From positions 1 through 46,956 of the forward strand of contig JAUNWX010000015.1 in assembly GCA_030540075.1 (NCBI GenBank): DNA of 46,956 nucleotides. Direction: 5' to 3'. This DNA is from Lachnospiraceae bacterium (lineage in GTDB: Bacteria; Bacillota; Clostridia; Lachnospirales; Lachnospiraceae). This document shows, one piece after another, positions 2,835 through 12,987 of this stretch. A model generated the notes under the pieces. That model had not been told where the DNA came from. It searched no databases and saw only the letters and a list, made by a program, of their open reading frames with translations. Each line of letters begins with the position of its first letter. Position 1 is the stretch's first letter. The position numbers and the translations under genes were made by a program.

Positions 2835-5468
2835 ATGGCGGACAATTATACAAAACGACTGGTACTGGGGATTCTCGCACATGTAGATGCGGGGAAGACG
2901 ACGCTGTCGGAGCGGATCCTCTATACTTCCGGACGTATTCAGAAGCTGGGAAGGGTAGATAAGGGCGACGCGTACCTCGATACTGACCAGATGGAGAAGG
3001 AACGTGGCATCACCATCTTCTCGAAGATGGCGAGTTTTCAGCTTCAGGATATCGCGGTGACCCTCCTTGATACCCCGGGTCATGTGGATTTTTCCGCTGA
3101 GATGGAGAAGACCCTGTCCGTGATGGACTATGCGATCCTCGTGATCAACGGTGCCGATGGTGTACAGGGACATACGGAGACCTTATGGCGTCTGCTGGAA
3201 CGCTACCATGTTCCGTGCTTCGTGTTCGTCAATAAGATGGACCAGCCGGGGACGGAGAAGGCGGCGTTGATGGCGGACCTGGAAAAGCACTTCGGCATGT
3301 CTCTCGTCGATTTCAGTGAGGCGGGACGTTATGCGATGTCCGACGCCCTCAAGGAAAACATCGCCATGTGCGACGAGCGCTGTATGGAGCGCTTCCTCGA
3401 AACCGGTGTCCTCGAGCCGAAGGACGTGCGGAACATGATCCTCGACCGGAAGCTCTTCCCTGTATTTTTCGGTTCGGCACTGAAGGGCGATGGCGTGGAG
3501 GCACTGCTCCAGGGCATGTACCAGCTGATCGAGATCCCGCTCTATCCGACGAGCTTCGGTGCCCGCGTGTTTAAGATCGGACGGGATGCACAGGGACATC
3601 GCCTTTCCTATATGAAGATTACCGGTGGCGAGCTGAAGGTGCGTACCGAGCTCCTGCCGGGGGAGAAGGTGCCGGAGCTTCGCTTCTACAGCGGCGTGAA
3701 GTATACCACCGCGGATACGGCGGAAGCTGGATCGGTTGTGGCGATTCCGGATCTTCCGGGCCTGAAAACCGGTGACAGCCTCGGCTGTGAGCCGGCGGGA
3801 CGTGACCCGAGCCTGCGTCCGGTGCTGGATTATCAGCTGGTGTCCGAGGATGTGGATGCACTGGAGCTCTATCGGAAGCTGCAGTCCCTCGCGGATGAAT
3901 TTCCGGAGCTGCACATCCGCTGGGACAGCACGCAGAAGGAAATTCACATTCAGCTCATGGGAGCGGTCCAGACCGAGATCCTGAAGCGTATGGTGAAGGA
4001 GCGTTACGGCATCGAGATCGATTTTTCAGCCGGTCGTATCCTGTATCAGGAAACGATCGCAGCACCGGTCGAGGGTGTCGGCCATTTCGAGCCGCTTCGT
4101 CACTATGCGGAGGTACATCTACTGCTGGAGCCGCTCCCGCGCGGCAGCGGTCTTCAGTTCCGAACCGACTGTTCGACGGATGCGCTGGCCATCAACTGGC
4201 AGCGTCTCGTACTGACCCATCTCAAGGTGCGGGAGCATATCGGGGTGCTCACCGGCAGCCCGGTCACCGACATTCGCTTCACACTCGTTGCCGGACGGGC
4301 CAGCAACAAGCATACCGAGGGTGGCGATTTCCGTGAGGCGACCTACCGTGCGGTGCGCCAGGGACTGCGAAAGGCGGAGAACATCCTGCTGGAGCCGTAT
4401 TATGCCTTCACGCTGGAAATCCCGGGCGACTATGTCGGACGTGCGATGACCGATCTCTCGAACATGAACGCTCATTTCGGTGCACCGGAGCTGAAGGGAG
4501 AGCGGGCGGTACTCGAAGGGACCGCTCCTGTCGTGGCGATGCGGAACTATCACCAGGAGCTGATGGTCTACACGAAGGGACTGGGAAATCTCACCCTGCG
4601 CTTCAGCGGCTATGATCGTTGCCATAATCCGGAGGAGGTGATCCTCGCCAGGGGCTATGATCCGGATCAGGATATCCTGAATCCATGTTCTTCCGTCTTC
4701 TGTGCCCATGGGACCGGCTTTCTCGTGCCGTTTGACGAGGTGGAGAGCTACATGCATGTCGAGTCGCCGCTCGAGCTGGATGGCCCGGTGGAGAAGCGCG
4801 ACTTCGAAGCGGATGCACTGCGCCTCGAGCGTATGCATGAGGGAAAGAAGGACGAGGGCTATAAGAGCGGCGGTCATTACATCGCCGATCAGGAGCTCGA
4901 GGATATCTTCGTGCGTACCTACGGACCGATCAAAAACCGGGCGAAGGACATGAATATCGCGAGTGCCCGCACCATCCACGCGCGGGAAAAGGAAGAAAAC
5001 CTCACGCAGAACCGCCGCGAGAAGAAGCCGCTGGTGAAGAAAAAGAACTACCTGCTCGTCGATGGCTATAATATCGTGTTCGCCTGGGAGGAGCTGAAGG
5101 CGCTGGCGGCGGTGAACCTCGATGCCGCGCGTGGAAAACTCCTCGATATCCTCTCGAACTATGCCGGCTACACCGGTGTCGAGCTGATCGTCGTCTTCGA
5201 CGCCTACCGTGTGGCAGGGCACGTCGTGGAGCAGACGAAGTACCATAATATCTATGTCGTCTTCACGCGGGAAGCGATGACGGCTGACGAGTACATCGAA
5301 GAGGAGACCCACGAGCTCTCGAAGCAGTATAACGTGACCGTGGCGACCTCGGACAAAGTCGTACAGGTCATCACCTGGGGAAGCGGCGCCATCCTGTGGT
5401 CTGCCCAGGACCTGCTGCACGAGGTACAGCGCTGTGAAGGAGAGATCCGAAAGGAGTGGCATGTTTAA
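2835..5468 (+). CDS. Tet(M)/EF-G-like ribosomal GTPase fused to a YacP/Rae1-like NYN nuclease domain
   Basis: 877 residues. The first roughly 650 form a translational GTPase of the ribosomal-protection type: G1 AHVDAGKTT (15-23), effector RGITI, G3 DTPGH (79-83), G4 NKMD (133-136), then EF-G domain II, III, IV and V-like segments. Such proteins bind the ribosomal A site; Tet(M) releases tetracycline there. After a charged linker, residues about 735-877 match YacP/Rae1 (NYN, PIN-like): LVDGYN (D743), VVFDA (D789), TADEYIE (D818, E819), ATSD (D840), then GSGAILWSAQDLLHEV. Bacillus Rae1 is a ribosome-associated endonuclease that cuts mRNA in the A site. All the acidic residues expected for metal binding are present. 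The gene starts one base after the kinase stop and overlaps the histidine kinase start by 8 bases. Base and codon use match its neighbours, so it does not look like a recently acquired resistance gene. Function of the fusion is inferred. Confidence 0.9.
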   Translation: MADNYTKRLVLGILAHVDAGKTTLSERILYTSGRIQKLGRVDKGDAYLDTDQMEKERGITIFSKMASFQLQDIAVTLLDTPGHVDFSAEMEKTLSVMDYAILVINGADGVQGHTETLWRLLERYHVPCFVFVNKMDQPGTEKAALMADLEKHFGMSLVDFSEAGRYAMSDALKENIAMCDERCMERFLETGVLEPKDVRNMILDRKLFPVFFGSALKGDGVEALLQGMYQLIEIPLYPTSFGARVFKIGRDAQGHRLSYMKITGGELKVRTELLPGEKVPELRFYSGVKYTTADTAEAGSVVAIPDLPGLKTGDSLGCEPAGRDPSLRPVLDYQLVSEDVDALELYRKLQSLADEFPELHIRWDSTQKEIHIQLMGAVQTEILKRMVKERYGIEIDFSAGRILYQETIAAPVEGVGHFEPLRHYAEVHLLLEPLPRGSGLQFRTDCSTDALAINWQRLVLTHLKVREHIGVLTGSPVTDIRFTLVAGRASNKHTEGGDFREATYRAVRQGLRKAENILLEPYYAFTLEIPGDYVGRAMTDLSNMNAHFGAPELKGERAVLEGTAPVVAMRNYHQELMVYTKGLGNLTLRFSGYDRCHNPEEVILARGYDPDQDILNPCSSVFCAHGTGFLVPFDEVESYMHVESPLELDGPVEKRDFEADALRLERMHEGKKDEGYKSGGHYIADQELEDIFVRTYGPIKNRAKDMNIASARTIHAREKEENLTQNRREKKPLVKKKNYLLVDGYNIVFAWEELKALAAVNLDAARGKLLDILSNYAGYTGVELIVVFDAYRVAGHVVEQTKYHNIYVVFTREAMTADEYIEEETHELSKQYNVTVATSDKVVQVITWGSGAILWSAQDLLHEVQRCEGEIRKEWHV

Positions 5469-6945
5469 ACGTCAGTGGTGGCGTATGTCCATCGACCGGA
5501 AGGTACAGAGTTTTGCGGCTGTGATCGTATTCATCATACTGGTCTCGGCCGGCTTCGCCATGTTCACGATGAGCTATTCTCTTCGCGACTACGGTCAGCT
5601 CCTCGATGAGAACCGCGCCTGCCAGTCCTTTATGAAGGCGATGGAGGACGAGGGCAATGCTTTCGCCGGCTATGTTTCCGCCGGTACCGAAACGGCACGG
5701 GATACGCTGGAAAAAGCTATCCACCGCACAGAGCGTTCGATCGATGCGCTTCCGTTTAACTATGAAGTCATCGGAGCGGAGCGTTATGCCCGAACCTGGA
5801 ATATAAAAAACGCATATCAGCAGTATGCGGCGTTCCGTGATGAGATGCTGGCGGACAGCAGGAACCGGACCGGCTTTCTGAAGCGTCTCAATGAATACAA
5901 TCAGCGGGAGGATTACCTCGAGCAGTATTCCCGCCGGCTGCTGCAGCTGACCGTAGAGGCGGGCTCGAGTGCGTATACCGAGAAGCTTCCGCTCTTCCGG
6001 GTGCTTCCGTTTATTTTTATCAACTTTACCCTGATTATGCTCGTCATCGTCGTAGAGATGGGAAACGTGATGAAGGAATCCATCGCGAAACCGGTCCGGG
6101 AGCTCAGCCAGGAGGCGCAGCGCATCGCCCGTTCCGATTTTTCGGGAGAGGATATCCACGTAGAAAACCGGGACGATCTCGGTGAGCTCGTGTCGATCTT
6201 CAACGATATGAAGCATGCGATGGAAGAAAATATCCAGACCATACAGGAAAACCATCGGATGACGGAGCTTCTGCAGCAGGAGAAGCTTGAGAACAGTGAG
6301 ATGGAGAAGCGACTGAATGCCAACCGCCTCGAGCTTTTGAAGAGTCAGATCAATCCGCACTTCCTCTTTAATACCCTGAATATGATCGGCTCCATGGCGG
6401 ATCTCGAGGATGCACCGACGACCGAGAAGATGACGCAGTCGCTCGCGCAGCTCTTCCGGTATAATCTGAATACCCACGAGCAGATCGTGCCCATCGAAAT
6501 GGAGCTTCGCATCGCTGAAAACTATATGTACCTTCAGAAGATGCGTTTCGGAAACCGTATACAGTATCAGGTGAATGCGCCGGAAGACATCAGTCAGATC
6601 CGCATTCCGTCCTTTACGATGCAGCCGCTGGTGGAAAATGCCATCGTGCATGGTCTGTCGAAGAAGGAGCAGGGCGGTACGGTCTCCGTTACCGTGACCG
6701 AGGATCCGAAGACGCAGATCGTCACCCTCCTGATCGAGGACGACGGACTGGGCATCGCGGAAGAACGGCTGTCTGCACTGATCGCCCGCATGCATAACCC
6801 GGAGGAGAATAAGACCGCGCGGATCGGCATCGGTCTCGGCAATATCTACCGTCGGATTCGTACCCTCTATCCGGAGCACGGTGATCTCAGCATTGACGCA
6901 AAGGAAGGCGTCGGTACACGGATCACCCTGACGATCCCGCAGTAG
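5461..6945 (+). CDS. Sensor histidine kinase, YesM/LytS type
   Basis: A 494-residue membrane kinase. TM1 (about 16-37) and TM2 (about 180-202) enclose an extracellular helical sensor of roughly 140 residues. A HAMP-like segment (KPVRELSQEAQRIA) and a coiled coil (QENHRMTELLQQEKLENSEM) follow. The phospho-acceptor is H300 in QINPHFLFNTL, typical of the His_kinase family PF06580. The ATPase has an N-box LVENAIVHGL (N393), IEDDGLGI and GIGLGNIYRRI. ATG 5461 was chosen because AAAGGAG lies just before it; an upstream in-frame ATG at 5434 lacks a good site. The start overlaps the end of the fusion GTPase gene, implying translational coupling. Its partner regulator follows after 29 bases. The ligand is unknown; the TRAP transporter downstream is the obvious candidate target. 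Confidence 0.92.
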   Translation: MFKRQWWRMSIDRKVQSFAAVIVFIILVSAGFAMFTMSYSLRDYGQLLDENRACQSFMKAMEDEGNAFAGYVSAGTETARDTLEKAIHRTERSIDALPFNYEVIGAERYARTWNIKNAYQQYAAFRDEMLADSRNRTGFLKRLNEYNQREDYLEQYSRRLLQLTVEAGSSAYTEKLPLFRVLPFIFINFTLIMLVIVVEMGNVMKESIAKPVRELSQEAQRIARSDFSGEDIHVENRDDLGELVSIFNDMKHAMEENIQTIQENHRMTELLQQEKLENSEMEKRLNANRLELLKSQINPHFLFNTLNMIGSMADLEDAPTTEKMTQSLAQLFRYNLNTHEQIVPIEMELRIAENYMYLQKMRFGNRIQYQVNAPEDISQIRIPSFTMQPLVENAIVHGLSKKEQGGTVSVTVTEDPKTQIVTLLIEDDGLGIAEERLSALIARMHNPEENKTARIGIGLGNIYRRIRTLYPEHGDLSIDAKEGVGTRITLTIPQ

Positions 6946-6974
6946 ATAAATCATAGTGAGAAGGGAGAAGCTAT

Positions 6975-7793
6975 ATGTACAGAGTCCTGGTGGCAGATGA
7001 TGAGGCCATCGAGCGAAAGGTGCTGGTGAAAAAGCTGCGCCAGAAGTTCGGTGAGGAAACAGCGGAATTTTACGAGGCGGAGAATGGCCGTGAGGTGCTG
7101 AAGCTGTATGCGGAAAAGGGCGCGGATATCCTGCTGCTGGACATCGAGATGCCAGGCATCACGGGACTGGAGGCAGCGGAGCAGATCCGTCAGAAGGACC
7201 GGAACTGTGCCATTCTCTTTCTGACCGCCTTTAACGAGTTTGACTATGCGCGGAAGGCGATTTCCGTGCATGCGCTCGATTATCTGCTGAAGCCGTACGA
7301 TGAGACGGAACTCTTTCTCTCGATCGATTCGGCGATGCACTATGTCGATCAGGTGAAGGCCGGTCAGCTGCAGCCACTGCCACAGCTGGAAACGCAGGCA
7401 GCGGCAGATGGATCCTCCGGGCTGGAAACGTCGGGTGAAGGAGAAGAAGGCCTTGCGCAGGAAGAGAGTGGTGAGGATAAGATCGTATCCCGCATGCGCC
7501 ACTACGTGGAGGAGCATTATATGGAGGATATCTCCGTACTGGATATCGCGAGTGCCTTCGGCTACAGCGAAGCGTACTTCTGTAAGCTCTTCAAGCAGAA
7601 CTTCGGAAAGAATTTCGTGACCTATCTGACAGAGTACAGGGTAGAGCTCGCGAAGAAGTCACTCGCGGATCTTTCCTGCAACGTAAAGGAAGTCGGGCAG
7701 CGGGTCGGCTATGCGGACAGTAATTATTTCACGAAGGTGTTTCGCCGGATCACCGGCATGAGCCCGTCGGAGTATCGGAATCAGCTGGGCTGA
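6975..7793 (+). CDS. AraC-type response regulator, YesN family
   Basis: 272 residues. The receiver domain has the acidic pocket ADDEA near the start, phospho-acceptor D56 in LLLDIEMPG, a switch threonine in FLTAF and the lysine in LLKPYD. A glutamine/glutamate-rich linker (about 130-165) leads to an AraC double helix-turn-helix domain (about 170-270), recognisable from YVEEHYMEDISVLDIASAFGYSEAYFCKLFKQ (read as two helices) and the final RRITGMSPSEYRNQ. It should bind DNA when phosphorylated by the kinase before it. A GAAGGGAGAAG ribosome binding site precedes the ATG. A perfect terminator follows the stop, so kinase and regulator end one transcript and the TRAP genes begin another. Confidence 0.93.
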   Translation: MYRVLVADDEAIERKVLVKKLRQKFGEETAEFYEAENGREVLKLYAEKGADILLLDIEMPGITGLEAAEQIRQKDRNCAILFLTAFNEFDYARKAISVHALDYLLKPYDETELFLSIDSAMHYVDQVKAGQLQPLPQLETQAAADGSSGLETSGEGEEGLAQEESGEDKIVSRMRHYVEEHYMEDISVLDIASAFGYSEAYFCKLFKQNFGKNFVTYLTEYRVELAKKSLADLSCNVKEVGQRVGYADSNYFTKVFRRITGMSPSEYRNQLG

Positions 7794-7820
7794 TTGTTCA
7801 TAAAAACGTCATGATAGTGA

Positions 7821-7871
7821 GAGAAACTATAATTTGTTGTGCATATCGTACAAATTATAGTTTCTCTTTTT
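7821..7871 (+). terminator. Strong rho-independent terminator after the regulator gene
   Basis: A perfect 17-bp stem (GAGAAACTATAATTTGT at 7821-7837 with its complement at 7850-7866) and a T-run. The inverted repeat is nearly symmetrical, so it could also serve as a binding site. Confidence 0.9.
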
Positions 7872-7969
7872 GTATACATTGATAAATGTGAATAAGAATT
7901 GTGAACAAAATGTTAAAATAGTACGGCAAATGTCAGAATTTTCCCCTGTCTCAACGCAGGATTGTTCTT

Positions 7970-7975
7970 TATAAT
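7970..7975 (+). promoter_or_regulatory. Putative -10 box of the TRAP operon
   Basis: TATAAT lies about 70 bases before the dctP start. The base string 17 upstream (TGTCTC) is a poor -35, which would fit a promoter needing an activator such as the adjacent AraC-type regulator. The activation is inference. Confidence 0.4.
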
Positions 7976-8043
7976 GTACTTGTGTGTGAAAGACGTCCGC
8001 AGAGTGTGGATGTCTAAATTATACAAAATGGAGGATATCTATT

Positions 8044-9195
8044 ATGAAGAAGAGAATCTTAAGTGGCGTTCTCGCCGCAACCATGGTTGCATCTCTTGCA
8101 GCCTGTGGCTCATCCAAGCCGGCTGAGACCACTGCAGCAGCTACGACTGCAGCAGCTACCGAGGCAGCCGCTGAGGAGACCACTGCAGCAGCAGAGGAGA
8201 AGACAACGGAGGCCGCAGCAGCAGACGGTGAGTACACTGTGAACGAGGCTGCAGCAGCTGATCCTGCAGTAACCCTGACCATGGCTGAGGTTAATCCGCT
8301 CGAGGGTACCATCTGCGGACAGATGGATACCAAGTTCAAGGAGGCTGTTGAGGCCATCTCCGGTGGTTCCATCACCATCGACCTTCAGGCATCCGGCGTA
8401 CTCGGCGCAGAGCAGGACGTTCTTGACTCTATGCTCGGCGGTGGCGGAGACATCGATATGTCCCGTATCTCTGCATTCGCTCTGACTTCCTACGGCGCAT
8501 CCAAGTCCGTTCTTCTTTCTCTCCCGTACGTTTTCGAGTCCAGAGAGCATTTCTGGAACTTCGTTCACAGCGATCTCGGCGCAGAGATTCTGAACGAGTC
8601 TGAGGAGGCTGGTGTTGGTATCAAGGGTCTCTTCTACGGCGAGGAGGGCTTCAGACACTTCTTCACTGTTGAGAGCAAGCCGGTTTCAACCGTTGCTGAT
8701 CTTAAGAACATGAAGATCCGTGTTTCCAACGACCCGATCATGCAGAAGATGGTTTCTTCTCTCGGTGCAAACCCTGCATCTGTTTCCATGACCGAACTCT
8801 ACTCCGCACTTCAGACAAACACCGTTGATGGTGCTGGTCAGCCGATCGCAAACTACGCTTCCAACCGTTTCGACGAGGTTGGTCCGAACCTTACACTGGA
8901 TGGTCACACACTGGGCGCAATCGAGGTTGTTATCTCTGATGATTCCTGGAACAACAAGCTGACCGACAACCAGAGAGACGTTATCACGGAGGCTTCCAAG
9001 ATCGCTTCTGATTACTGCCAGAAGATCGCTGCTGAGACCGAGGATAAGGTTCTCGAGGAGCTCAAGGGCCGTGGCTGCAACGTGATCGAGATCACAGATA
9101 AGTCCGAGTGGGAGGCAGCTTGCGCACCGATCACTGAGGAGTACGCAACTGGCGAGCTTAAGGATGTTCTTGATCAGATCAAGGCACTTGCTTAA
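8044..9195 (+). CDS. dctP: TRAP transporter solute-binding lipoprotein, DctP family
   Basis: 383 residues. A lipoprotein signal ends in the lipobox SLAAC with C21 as the lipid-anchored residue. An alanine/threonine/glutamate-rich low-complexity tether (about 22-65) follows, then the DctP fold, with DLKNMKIRVSNDPIMQKM supplying the conserved arginine that usually contacts a ligand carboxylate. The segment TVDGAGQPI takes the place of the family's DGAEN. It captures a small organic acid or similar solute outside the membrane and hands it to the DctQM permease encoded next. Codons (GTT, TCT, AAG, GAG) resemble the ribosomal genes rather than its neighbours, pointing to very high expression. A hairpin separates it from dctQ, as often seen where the binding protein is made in excess. 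Substrate not predictable. Confidence 0.93.
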   Translation: MKKRILSGVLAATMVASLAACGSSKPAETTAAATTAAATEAAAEETTAAAEEKTTEAAAADGEYTVNEAAAADPAVTLTMAEVNPLEGTICGQMDTKFKEAVEAISGGSITIDLQASGVLGAEQDVLDSMLGGGGDIDMSRISAFALTSYGASKSVLLSLPYVFESREHFWNFVHSDLGAEILNESEEAGVGIKGLFYGEEGFRHFFTVESKPVSTVADLKNMKIRVSNDPIMQKMVSSLGANPASVSMTELYSALQTNTVDGAGQPIANYASNRFDEVGPNLTLDGHTLGAIEVVISDDSWNNKLTDNQRDVITEASKIASDYCQKIAAETEDKVLEELKGRGCNVIEITDKSEWEAACAPITEEYATGELKDVLDQIKALA

Positions 9196-9239
9196 TCTGT
9201 ACAAAAGCAACGAAACGTCATTTTCGAATGACATGTAGT

Positions 9240-9276
9240 GAGGTGCTCACGGCGTGTCCGTGAGCACCTCAACGTT
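9240..9276 (+). terminator. Hairpin between dctP and dctQ, likely partial terminator
   Basis: A 13-bp perfect stem (GAGGTGCTCACGG at 9240-9252 with its complement at 9258-9270), followed only by AACGTTTTAG. The weak tail suggests partial termination or protection of the dctP mRNA end. Confidence 0.65.
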
Positions 9277-9292
9277 TTAGAAGGGGGATTCT

Positions 9293-9853
9293 ATGCTTGA
9301 CGCTTTAAAAAAGTTTGAGCCAATCTATGATTGGGTTTACAAAATCGTCATGGTGCTCTGTAAGCTGCTTCTCGTAGCTGATATCCTCATCATGACCTGG
9401 GTTGTACTGGGACGTTACCTCACCTTCTTACCGGCGCCAGGCTGGGGCGAGGAAACGATTCTGACACTGATGGCCTATATGTCCGTTCTTTCAGCGGCAC
9501 TGGCCATCCGTCGTAATGCACATATTCGTATGACGACCTTCGATCGTTATCTTCCGGTTGGGCTTCTGAAGGTTCTGGATCTTCTTGATGATATCGCCGT
9601 TATGGTGCTTGCGTTCATCATGCTGATCGTCGGCTGGAAGTATGCGAACGGCATCGGCGCGAAGGGCTCCTTCATCTCCATGCCATGGCTCAGTAAGAAG
9701 TGGATGTACTTCCCGATTCCGCTGGCCGGCTTCGCGATGATCTTCTTCGAGCTGGAATGTCTGGTCATCGATATCGAGCATATCATGGATAAGAATTATA
9801 AGCCGGATGACGGCATGCATTTTGACACACCGGATGAAAAGGAGGCGAAATAA
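9293..9853 (+). CDS. dctQ: TRAP transporter small permease, DctQ family
   Basis: 186 residues with four predicted membrane helices (around IVMVLCKLLLVADILIMTW, ILTLMAYMSVLSAALAI, DIAVMVLAFIMLIVGW and FPIPLAGFAMIFFELECLVI). WGEETILTLMAYMS is typical of DctQ. The protein pairs with DctM to form the membrane part of the TRAP carrier, which is driven by an ion gradient rather than ATP. A GAAGGGGG ribosome binding site precedes the ATG. The dctM start lies two bases after its stop, so the two subunits are coupled. Confidence 0.93.
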   Translation: MLDALKKFEPIYDWVYKIVMVLCKLLLVADILIMTWVVLGRYLTFLPAPGWGEETILTLMAYMSVLSAALAIRRNAHIRMTTFDRYLPVGLLKVLDLLDDIAVMVLAFIMLIVGWKYANGIGAKGSFISMPWLSKKWMYFPIPLAGFAMIFFELECLVIDIEHIMDKNYKPDDGMHFDTPDEKEAK

Positions 9854-9855
9854 TT

Positions 9856-11190
9856 ATGGCAAATACAACCGCTATTGCAGTTCTCCTGATTACATTCTTC
9901 GTACTGATTTTCCTCAGAGTGCCGATCGCGTACTCTGTAGCACTTTCATCTGTCTGCTGTCTGATGTATCAGGGACTTCCTCTGAATACTGTTGCACAGC
10001 AGATGGTAAAGGGTATTTCTTCTTTCTCACTGATGGCCGTTCCGTTCTTCATCACCATGGGTGTATATATGGGAACCGGTGGTATCTCTGAGAAGCTCCT
10101 GGATTTGGCAGACGCCTGTGTCGGCTGGATGACCGGTGGTCTCGCCATGGTAAACATCCTGGCATCCTACTTCTTCGGTGGTATCTCCGGATCCGCTTCT
10201 GCAGATACGGCGTCCCTCGGTTCGCTTGAGATCCCGATGATGGTCAACCGTGGATATGATGTTGACTTCGCGACGGCCGTTACCATCGCATCCTCTGTCG
10301 AGGGTATGCTGGTTCCGCCATCTCATAACATGGTTATCTATGCGACCACCGCAGGTGGTATCTCCATCGGCTCCCTCTTCCTCGCAGGTTACCTTCCGGG
10401 CGTTGTTCTCGCAGGTTCCCTGATGATCGGTTCCTACATCATCTCGAAGAAGAGACATTATCCAAAGGGAGAGCCGTTCTCTCTGAAGAGACTGGGCCGC
10501 ACCCTGGCAACCTCGATCTGGGCACTGATGTGCATCCTGATCGTCGTAGTCGGTGTCGTAGCCGGTGTGTTCACCGCGACCGAGTCTGCTGCGATTGCCG
10601 TTATCTACTCACTGCTTGTATCGATTTACGTTTATAAGGGTATCACCTGGAAGCAGGCATGGGAGTGCCTCGACAGCTGTGTAGAGACACTCGGTATCGT
10701 ACTGATCCTCATCTCTACCTCCTCCATCTTCGGCTACTGCCTGACCAGACTTCACGTTCCGGATCTCGCAGCAAACCTGATCACCGGCGTTTCGAATAAC
10801 CCGGTTGTCATCGCACTGCTCGTGAACCTCATCCTTCTGATCCTCGGCTGTATCATGGATATGGCGCCGATCATCCTGATTTCGACCCCGATCCTTCTCC
10901 CGATCGTTATGAACATCGGTATGGATCCGGTTCAGTATGGTATCATCCTCGTCCTCAACTGTGGTATCGGTCTTCTGACACCGCCGGTTGGATCGGTTCT
11001 CTTTATCGGTGCAGCAATTGCGAAGCGTCCGATGGAGAAGATCGTCGTAGCGATGCTTCCGTTCTATCTGATGATGGTTGTCGCACTGATGCTGATCACC
11101 TTCGTTCCGAATATCTCCCTCATCATCCCGAAGCTCTTCGGATATGTACAGCAGGGTACCGGTGTTCTTTCCATGATTGGCAAGCTGTAA
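9856..11190 (+). CDS. dctM: TRAP transporter large permease, DctM family
   Basis: 444 residues, very hydrophobic throughout, with the dozen or so helices expected of DctM. FFGGISGSASADTASLG is the conserved re-entrant loop near ion and substrate sites, and VPPSHNMVIYATTAGGIS and LNCGIGLLTPPVGSVLFIG are the matching second-half motifs. It forms the translocation path for the solute delivered by DctP. The ribosome binding site GGAGG lies inside the end of dctQ. A strong terminator follows, closing the dctP-dctQ-dctM transcript. Confidence 0.95.
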   Translation: MANTTAIAVLLITFFVLIFLRVPIAYSVALSSVCCLMYQGLPLNTVAQQMVKGISSFSLMAVPFFITMGVYMGTGGISEKLLDLADACVGWMTGGLAMVNILASYFFGGISGSASADTASLGSLEIPMMVNRGYDVDFATAVTIASSVEGMLVPPSHNMVIYATTAGGISIGSLFLAGYLPGVVLAGSLMIGSYIISKKRHYPKGEPFSLKRLGRTLATSIWALMCILIVVVGVVAGVFTATESAAIAVIYSLLVSIYVYKGITWKQAWECLDSCVETLGIVLILISTSSIFGYCLTRLHVPDLAANLITGVSNNPVVIALLVNLILLILGCIMDMAPIILISTPILLPIVMNIGMDPVQYGIILVLNCGIGLLTPPVGSVLFIGAAIAKRPMEKIVVAMLPFYLMMVVALMLITFVPNISLIIPKLFGYVQQGTGVLSMIGKL

Positions 11191-11802: not shown

Positions 11803-12987
11803 GTGAAAAGACGCAGTGATATGAAGAGACAGAGGATTTTTTCTTTCAGAGGACGCAGAAAGTGCCTGCTGTTGAGCCTCGGCGGCATCGCTCTGCTGAG
11901 TCAGCTGCCTGGATGCAGCGCGGCAGTAGCCGGCGAACCGAAGCAGACGACATCACAGGAAACGGGTGCCGCCGGTATGACACCGACATCTGGAGAAGAT
12001 ACTGCGAAGACCGCAGGTGCAGATGCGCAACAGGAGCGGACGCAGACAGGCCAGGCGAAGCAGAAAAAAGTGCCGGATTATGTTCTGAGCTATGCCGATA
12101 ACCAGACCGGGAACTATCCGACGGTGCAGGCAGCACGTCGTTTCGCAGAGCAGGTGAATAAAGAAACGGATGGGCGGATCGAGATCCGCGTGTATCCGAA
12201 TGCAGAGCTCGGTGATGAGGTATCGACGGTACAGCAGCTGACGTTCGGCGGGATCGATTTCTGCCGCTGCTCCCTCTCAAATCTTTCGGATTACAGCGAA
12301 GAAGCCATCGTCCTGCAGATGCCGTATCTATATGCAGATCAGGAGCATATGTGGCGGGTACTGGATGGCGACATCGGTGCACAGGTGAAGCAGAGCTTCC
12401 GGGGAAGCGGTATGCTTGCACTGACCTGGTTCGATGCAGGTGTTCGTAATTTCTATACGACGGATCGGGAAATTCGCTCTCTCGAGGATATGCAGGGGCT
12501 GAAGATTCGTGTCCAGCAGTCTGCGCTTGCGGAGGATATGGTGGAGGCGCTGGGCGCGGAGGCGGTGCCGATCGTCTATGAAGCGGTCAAGGATGCACTC
12601 CGGACCGGCGAAATCGACGGCGCAGAGAACAACTGGGCCTCCTATGAGGCGATGGAGCACGATGAAATCGCCCGCAACTATACCGTGGATGAGCATATGC
12701 GTGTTCCGGAGTTGATGCTCGTCAGCAGTGCGACCTGGGAACAGCTGTCGCCGGACGATCAGGCGACGATCCAGCGCTGTGCAGATGCCGCCGGTCTCTA
12801 TGAGCGGGAGCTCTGGACGGCGCGTGAAGCGAGTGCCCGGGAGAAGTGTCTTCGGGAGGGCACGGTCGAAATCGTGCTCCCGGAGCGGGAAAAGAAGCGC
12901 TTCCGGGATGCCGTTTCTCCTCTTTACAAAAAGTACTGCGGGGATTATGCTGAACTCATTGATAAAATCAATGAAATAAGAGATTGA
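11803..12987 (+). CDS. Second DctP-type solute-binding lipoprotein, no permease of its own
   Basis: 394 residues from GTG 11803, or 388 from ATG 11821; neither start has a clear ribosome binding site. A basic N-terminus and a hydrophobic stretch end at C38 in LPGC, a likely though imperfect lipobox. A polar linker (about 40-85) precedes the DctP fold: VLSYADNQTGNYPTVQAARR, the sensor region QGLKIRVQQSALAEDMVEAL with the conserved ligand arginine, and RTGEIDGAENNW, which is closer to the DctP consensus than the same part of the first binding protein. It shares little sequence with that protein outside family motifs. It either feeds the DctQM permease nearby with another solute or acts as a ligand sensor for the kinase; both are inference. 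murC follows after 18 bases. Confidence 0.88.
   Translation: MKRRSDMKRQRIFSFRGRRKCLLLSLGGIALLSQLPGCSAAVAGEPKQTTSQETGAAGMTPTSGEDTAKTAGADAQQERTQTGQAKQKKVPDYVLSYADNQTGNYPTVQAARRFAEQVNKETDGRIEIRVYPNAELGDEVSTVQQLTFGGIDFCRCSLSNLSDYSEEAIVLQMPYLYADQEHMWRVLDGDIGAQVKQSFRGSGMLALTWFDAGVRNFYTTDREIRSLEDMQGLKIRVQQSALAEDMVEALGAEAVPIVYEAVKDALRTGEIDGAENNWASYEAMEHDEIARNYTVDEHMRVPELMLVSSATWEQLSPDDQATIQRCADAAGLYERELWTAREASAREKCLREGTVEIVLPEREKKRFRDAVSPLYKKYCGDYAELIDKINEIRD

Follow-up and report, generated by a model that had tools for sequence, protein, structure and literature searches.

The contig JAUNWX010000015.1 of a Lachnospiraceae bacterium (assembly GCA_030540075.1), analyzed over its full length of 46,956 nucleotides (nt) and referred to below as the window, carries at 2835..5468 on the forward strand a gene in which a translational GTPase is fused to a nuclease domain of the Rae1/YacP NYN type. 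The gene is a single open reading frame of 877 codons plus stop, without internal stop codons and with known homologues. One of our main findings is that this fusion replaces the standalone Rae1: where the ancestral slot of the standalone gene could be read, it is mostly empty or holds a pseudogene. It is very likely that the fused NYN domain does the same cellular job as Rae1/YacP. We propose that the protein is a GTPase-tethered Rae1, a clostridial translation factor that would cut A-site mRNA on stalled ribosomes, and we give this reading, of which we infer the ribosomal step, a probability of about 0.55.

A preliminary description of the window had suggested a survey of whether standalone yacP is missing where the fusion occurs, and it is missing. 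The window's own genome contains one copy of PF05991 (NYN_YacP), the fused one. In the order, Lachnospirales, 338 of 392 genomes matched PF05991. Among the matches listed, we typed 131 genomes as fusion-sized and 92 as standalone-sized; one more had a frame of 372 amino acids (aa; G172) and three had broken or partial frames (G183, G216 and G241). An intact standalone NYN gene accompanied the fusion in two of the 131 fusion-sized genomes (G195 and G221, each with 5-6% contamination), and in G221 the single RlmB above cut-off lies on the contig with the standalone gene. No separate NYN above cut-off was found in the 28 fusion genomes of our class sample that were checked. Within the family, Lachnospiraceae (131 genomes, for which the lists look complete), 111 genomes were fusion-sized (in two of these, G298 and G385, the frames are shorter, at 601 and 516 aa), seven had a standalone NYN and 13 had neither. 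All seven standalone-NYN genomes carry the unfused GTPase (G373 only partly). The five of these unfused GTPases that entered our tree (L113, L115, L116, L117 and L121) lie outside the fused clade, and are therefore not fusions that were taken apart.

The gene preceding a standalone NYN is rlmB at 33 of 41 loci, at a median distance of 26 nt, and the gene that follows it is sigH at 35 of 41, at a median distance of 23 nt. At the RlmB loci of 30 fusion genomes, SigH was within reach in 16. These 16 readable slots contained one intact NYN (G221), three decayed remnants and 12 cases with none detectable, seven of which have gaps of 15-58 nt. The remnant in G074 has stop codons and a deletion, that in G045 consists of only about the first 30 codons, and that in G437 is interrupted by in-frame stops. 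At the other 14 RlmB loci, including that of the window's genome, SigH was out of reach and no NYN was seen near RlmB; at the RlmB locus of G000 (L266), neither NYN nor SigH was present within about 1.5 kb. G074, G195 and G221 are congeneric, so that a single genus shows how the old gene decayed after the fusion had been acquired.

The protein is an EF-G/Tet-fold GTPase (residues 1-644) joined by a mostly disordered tether to a Rae1/YacP NYN nuclease, all of its parts being encoded on the forward strand. In the G domain (residues 9-232, 2859..3530; Pfam GTP_EFTU, 181.8 bits), alignment identified intact AHVDAGKTT, GITIFS, DTPGH (with its histidine kept) and NKMD motifs. Domains II and III (residues 242-397, 3558..4025) were recognized by EF-G_D2 at 242-316 and EFG_III at 341-397 and by the strands and helices of the predicted model; the EFG_III score of 23.6 bits is slightly below the cut-off of 27, whereas the other five Pfam domains exceed theirs. 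Domain IV (residues 400-515, 4032..4379; EFG_IV, 63 bits) and domain V (residues 518-598, 4386..4628; EFG_C, 69.1 bits) precede a C-terminal extension of the subfamily (residues 599-644, 4629..4766). This extension was defined by alignment and is folded in the model, in which block means of the predicted local distance difference test (pLDDT) are 90-95 across residues 601-640.

The charged tether (residues 645-737, 4767..5045) has low pLDDT, with values below 50 in three segments (650-656, 666-685 and 700-733) and with two helices predicted at low to middling confidence (655-669 and 685-696). Across 103 fusions the tether is 64-138 aa long, with a median of 79. The NYN domain (residues 738-877, 5046..5465) matches PF05991 at 740-874 with 152.6 bits against a cut-off of 24.6, and this part alone matches the solved YacP of B. 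subtilis (PDB 5mq8) with an E value of 4.7e-25. A model of the whole protein, based on an alignment of 70 fusions, has a mean pLDDT of 85.7 and consists of two confident modules with a low-confidence stretch between them (650-733). The first module, the GTPase, superposes on ribosome-bound EF-G and TetM structures (Foldseek, VIA); all of the Foldseek/VIA rows shown come from the GTPase part, and the NYN fold is assigned by sequence. The window copy ends shortly past the NYN core, and 10 of the 12 other fusions in alignment A1 extend about 20-45 residues further.

The preliminary description had recognized a YacP/Rae1-type NYN domain with an intact active site, as the PF05991 and 5mq8 matches confirm. 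Four of the acidic residues that it named (D743, D789, D818 and D840) do not vary across 70 fusions; the remaining invariant acid is E822 rather than E819. Every one of the 94 fused and 41 standalone rows compared has all five. In contrast, three residues that lie away from the active site and never vary in the 41 standalones are relaxed in the fusions: a glutamate (column 843) retained in 52 of 94 fused rows, an arginine (column 854) retained in 37, and a C-terminal arginine retained in nine, the last at a position that is a gap in many fused rows. With V843, L854 and a missing C-terminal tail, the window copy has lost all three; in our alignment B. subtilis YacP retains the glutamate and the first arginine. 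A natural reading would be that the residues by which Rae1 positions itself on the ribosome become less important when positioning is left to the GTPase.

Because the fusion replaces Rae1, mRNA cleavage on the ribosome is its most likely activity. In the GTPase-tethered Rae1 that we propose, the GTPase would bind the factor site of ribosomes whose A site is vacant or poorly filled. Once GTP is hydrolyzed or domain IV withdraws, the tethered NYN domain would be able to reach and cut the A-site mRNA, after which the cut mRNA would decay and the truncated complex would pass to rescue by transfer-messenger RNA (tmRNA). Domain IV and the Rae1-type nuclease would be expected to act in turn because they would compete for the same site. 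The shortest tether, at about 3.5 Å per residue, spans about 200 Å if extended (an estimate rather than a docking), so that reach should be no obstacle. All 10 fusion genomes tested had tmRNA, which says little given that it is near-universal. A fuller version would make the fusion a surveillance nuclease contained in one chain and timed by GTP, which would have taken the place of Rae1 widely among Clostridia. Its GTPase would recognize a class of stalled or drug-bound ribosomes, clear the A site or inspect it, and then pass it on to a tethered Rae1 that no longer depends on docking residues; we offer this elaboration tentatively, with the odds somewhat against it.

Several observations weigh against a GTPase-tethered Rae1. 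Six of the 16 class genomes with an unfused GTPase are without NYN (G472, G588, G440, G611, G445 and G488), and G035 (77% complete) likewise has the GTPase without NYN. In the class, NYN occurred in 10 of 16 genomes with an unfused GTPase versus 9 of 18 GTPase-less genomes (Fisher p 0.51), the latter being those listed of 166 without a match, minus two of the order. Of the 80 standalone-Rae1 genomes tested, 57 are without the GTPase. Since each half is found alone, the partnership is not obligatory in general, and since 13 of the 131 family genomes are without any NYN, the function is dispensable. We rejected as evidence a dependence in which the GTPase implies NYN: in the order the GTPase occurred in 23 of 80 standalone-NYN versus 1 of 20 NYN-less genomes (Fisher p 0.037; 80 of 91 and 20 of 54 such genomes compared), but the class comparison did not follow, and these presence/absence counts ignore kinship.

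The nuclease might instead serve ribosome-associated RNA maturation, the GTPase placing NYN on precursors of ribosomal RNA (rRNA) or transfer RNA (tRNA) rather than on A-site mRNA. Maturation of rRNA and tRNA was the role originally proposed for the NYN domain (cited in PMC4342817), and the ancestral neighbor of the gene encodes the rRNA methylase RlmB. We consider this unlikely, as reports on B. subtilis Rae1 describe an action on mRNA that depends on translation (PMC12320835, PMC10100781) and as the family genomes without a PF05991 match would be odd for a core maturation enzyme. A reading as a defense system was rejected, there being no PADLOC match.

The history of the fusion bears on whether its halves work together. 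In a GTPase tree of 113 rows the fused label changed three times. Two of these changes are L025 and L189, split copies with broken frames; the third is the origin, with the unfused L111 and L112 as sister to the fusions, and the genomes of these two (G080 and G264) have a separate NYN gene. A more careful tree of 42 chosen rows had one change (support 79/100), with a single origin in 75% of bootstrap trees, and an NYN tree, built on 41 standalone and 94 fused rows, had one change as well (Shimodaira-Hasegawa-like approximate likelihood ratio test, 91). The 80 named loci were thinned to about half for the 113-row and NYN trees; the former left out duplicates and matches spanning fewer than 550 model positions, and two of its rows, L012 and L013, fill only 24% of the columns. 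We conclude that the fusion most likely arose once. The lesions in L025 and L189 lie near the same region and are unlike each other; rather than a programmed frameshift, they are probably assembly errors or decay. In L189 (G462) the fusion gene lies in two frames at 1408-1567, split at a run of seven A residues, which could reflect sequencing error, decay or slippage.

A fusion of convenience, in which the GTPase works on the ribosome in its own right, like its unfused relatives, and NYN is merely co-expressed, would fit the existence of unfused GTPases without NYN and of NYN without the GTPase. It fits poorly with one origin, with a presence in many families and with the fact that none of the sampled fusions has cleanly come apart again, the two split rows being broken frames. 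Three standalone genes have also decayed in the presence of the fusion, and residues that never vary in standalones have become relaxed, which suggests reliance on the tether. We therefore regard mere convenience as rather improbable.

The preliminary description had called the GTPase Tet(M)/EF-G-like. Its EF-G/Tet fold and intact motifs bear this out, whereas curated cut-offs and tip loops do not make it a Tet(M). The best NCBIfam model, tet_protect (NF012153), gave 433.5 bits against a curated cut-off of 775; as controls, two Tets of the survey scored 831.9 and 819.2, and two distant fusions 424.5 and 428.5. In an alignment of 13 fused and unfused rows with four Tet and two EF-G rows, the domain-IV loops of Tet are replaced by motifs common, with variations, to fused and unfused members, tip loop III being of the KHTEGGDFREATYRAVRQGL type, which differs from the Tet type. 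All 13 fused and unfused rows but one (L130) have the 599-644 extension, and none of the four Tet and two EF-G rows does. Scores on the GTPase profile set the subfamily apart: complete fused and unfused orthologues scored about 600-1110 bits, Tets and Tet-like proteins about 380-510, and EF-G at most about 340. By these measures the GTPase is a separate subfamily, Tet(M)-like in fold, and not Tet(M) by curated cut-offs or tip loops.

These data also bear on tetracycline ribosomal protection with an added RNase, in which the GTPase would dislodge the drug and NYN would contribute RNA cleavage to resistance. The fold and 28% identity to TetM (3j9y) speak for it, some relatives' records are named as TetM/TetW/TetO/TetS family, and Atkinson 2015 (PMC4342817), describing NYN-bearing Tet proteins in ten clostridial species, suggests RNase-based tetracycline resistance for them. 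Nonetheless, the fusion falls far short of the cut-off that the Tet controls pass, and the domain-IV tip loops, which are credited with dislodging tetracycline (PMC4342817), are replaced. The fusion is nearly always single-copy with a taxon-wide distribution, it starts 1 nt past the upstream stop codon and so has no room for a leader of its own, and just 2 of 1264 matching plasmid records cover 80% of the protein. We hold drug resistance to be improbable. Ligilactobacillus salivarius plasmid records (H3-H15) contain an unfused relative, labeled tetracycline resistance, with about 47% identity over 640 residues; it is closer to the window GTPase than is the single clostridial unfused copy that was compared (L028, 41%).

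The fusion is widespread. Full-length homologues occur in ten other genomes of the same genus, nine at 58-74% identity and one (G007) at 50%; thus the window fusion is neither an assembly error nor a frameshift. A scan of genome contigs returned at least 592 relatives, the best 80 of which cover the protein nearly completely at 47-54% identity and include records named Lachnospiraceae, Oscillospiraceae, Anaerovorax, Fusibacter, Clostridium punense and Desulfosporosinus. In the class sample, the GTPase profile matched in 125 of 291 genomes: 101 had fusion-sized frames (at least 760 aa), 16 an unfused orthologue, three fragments (one of them, G462, a broken fusion) and five only Tet-like scores. 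In a phylum sample 20 of 299 genomes matched, 14 of them outside the class and 12 of these fusion-sized. Two fused copies occur in G541, and G529 has two unfused GTPase copies (L175 and L176). A broken frame, absence from related genomes and missing nuclease residues had been named beforehand as grounds for abandoning the fusion; the frame is intact, related genomes contain the fusion and the nuclease residues are in place. That an assembly error or frameshift joined two genes is refuted for practical purposes by more than 100 full-length relatives in isolates and metagenome-assembled genomes.

Downstream of the fusion, and outside it, is a histidine kinase gene (5461..6945, forward strand), which begins with an ATG at 5461 and so shares 8 nt with the end of the fusion gene; an alternative GTG start at 5434 gives a longer frame. 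The preliminary description took this overlap as a hint of stress control. However, in flanks of about 1.5 kb (some contigs end), the kinase neighbors the fusion at 5 of the 11 loci from the genus, and outside the genus the fetched flanks gave one weak match (20% identity, L075); the overlap is local, and the hint finds no support. The kinase, of the His_kinase/HAMP type, is followed in a row by an AraC-type response regulator and by DctP, DctQ and DctM, which make up a complete TRAP transporter. These genes (5461-11190) are probably one sensing and uptake unit, and the transporter would be the kinase's likelier target. Near the transporter are two solute-binding-type frames (8044-9195 and 11803-12987), the first being DctP and the second similar by eye only. 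Upstream, a shikimate-kinase-like gene (2318-2833) ends 1 nt before the fusion start and is near the fusion in 10 of 11 same-genus loci; a DHH/DHHA2 protein with CBS and DRTGG domains (Pfam; 474-2192), presumably a regulated inorganic pyrophosphatase, is near it in 9 of 11. Gene neighborhood was rejected as a functional clue: among 80 named loci from other genomes, in 78 of which the fusion frame was found, no neighbor cluster occurred in more than 12, and orientations were mixed.

If the fusion is a GTPase-tethered Rae1, the part of Rae1 is played in many Clostridia by an A-site nuclease that a GTPase drives, and some of this group's genes that are at present labeled tetracycline resistance are translation quality-control factors, a mislabeling that would distort resistome counts. 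As a natural tethered Rae1 with fixed catalytic residues and others relaxed, it could also tell which parts of Rae1 find the ribosome. The preliminary description knew of no described function; Atkinson 2015 (PMC4342817) both describes the fusion and suggests one. In the open-access literature searched, we recognized the fusion only in that paper and recognized no experimental follow-up, the main Rae1 papers lying outside the reach of this search; a Rae1 distribution paper of 2018 may already count these fusions. Our additions to the known architecture are the replacement of Rae1 and the non-Tet nature of the GTPase.

Compared with known systems, the fusion shares with Tet(M)/Tet(O) the EF-G-like five-domain GTPase and the same G motifs, and differs in scoring under the curated cut-offs, in its domain-IV loops and in having the added extension, the tether and the nuclease. 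The unfused GTPases of the subfamily (639-724 aa when complete, for example L111, L172 and those of the L. salivarius plasmids) have the same GTPase and tip loops but no NYN in the chain, NYN being a separate gene elsewhere or absent. The proteins of Atkinson 2015 (PMC4342817) are of the same build, in that a Tet-like translational GTPase carries an NYN RNase domain of the YacP-like kind; that paper files them under Tet, whereas we place the fusion in a subfamily of its own, which has non-Tet tip loops, stands in for rae1 and is found in many more lineages. With Rae1/YacP of B. subtilis (5mq8 and 5mq9) the fusion shares, by alignment, the NYN domain and all five catalytic acids. The standalone Rae1/YacP proteins that we surveyed are free proteins of about 170 aa, encoded mostly between rlmB and sigH, whereas the fused NYN is tethered to its GTPase and gone from that locus.
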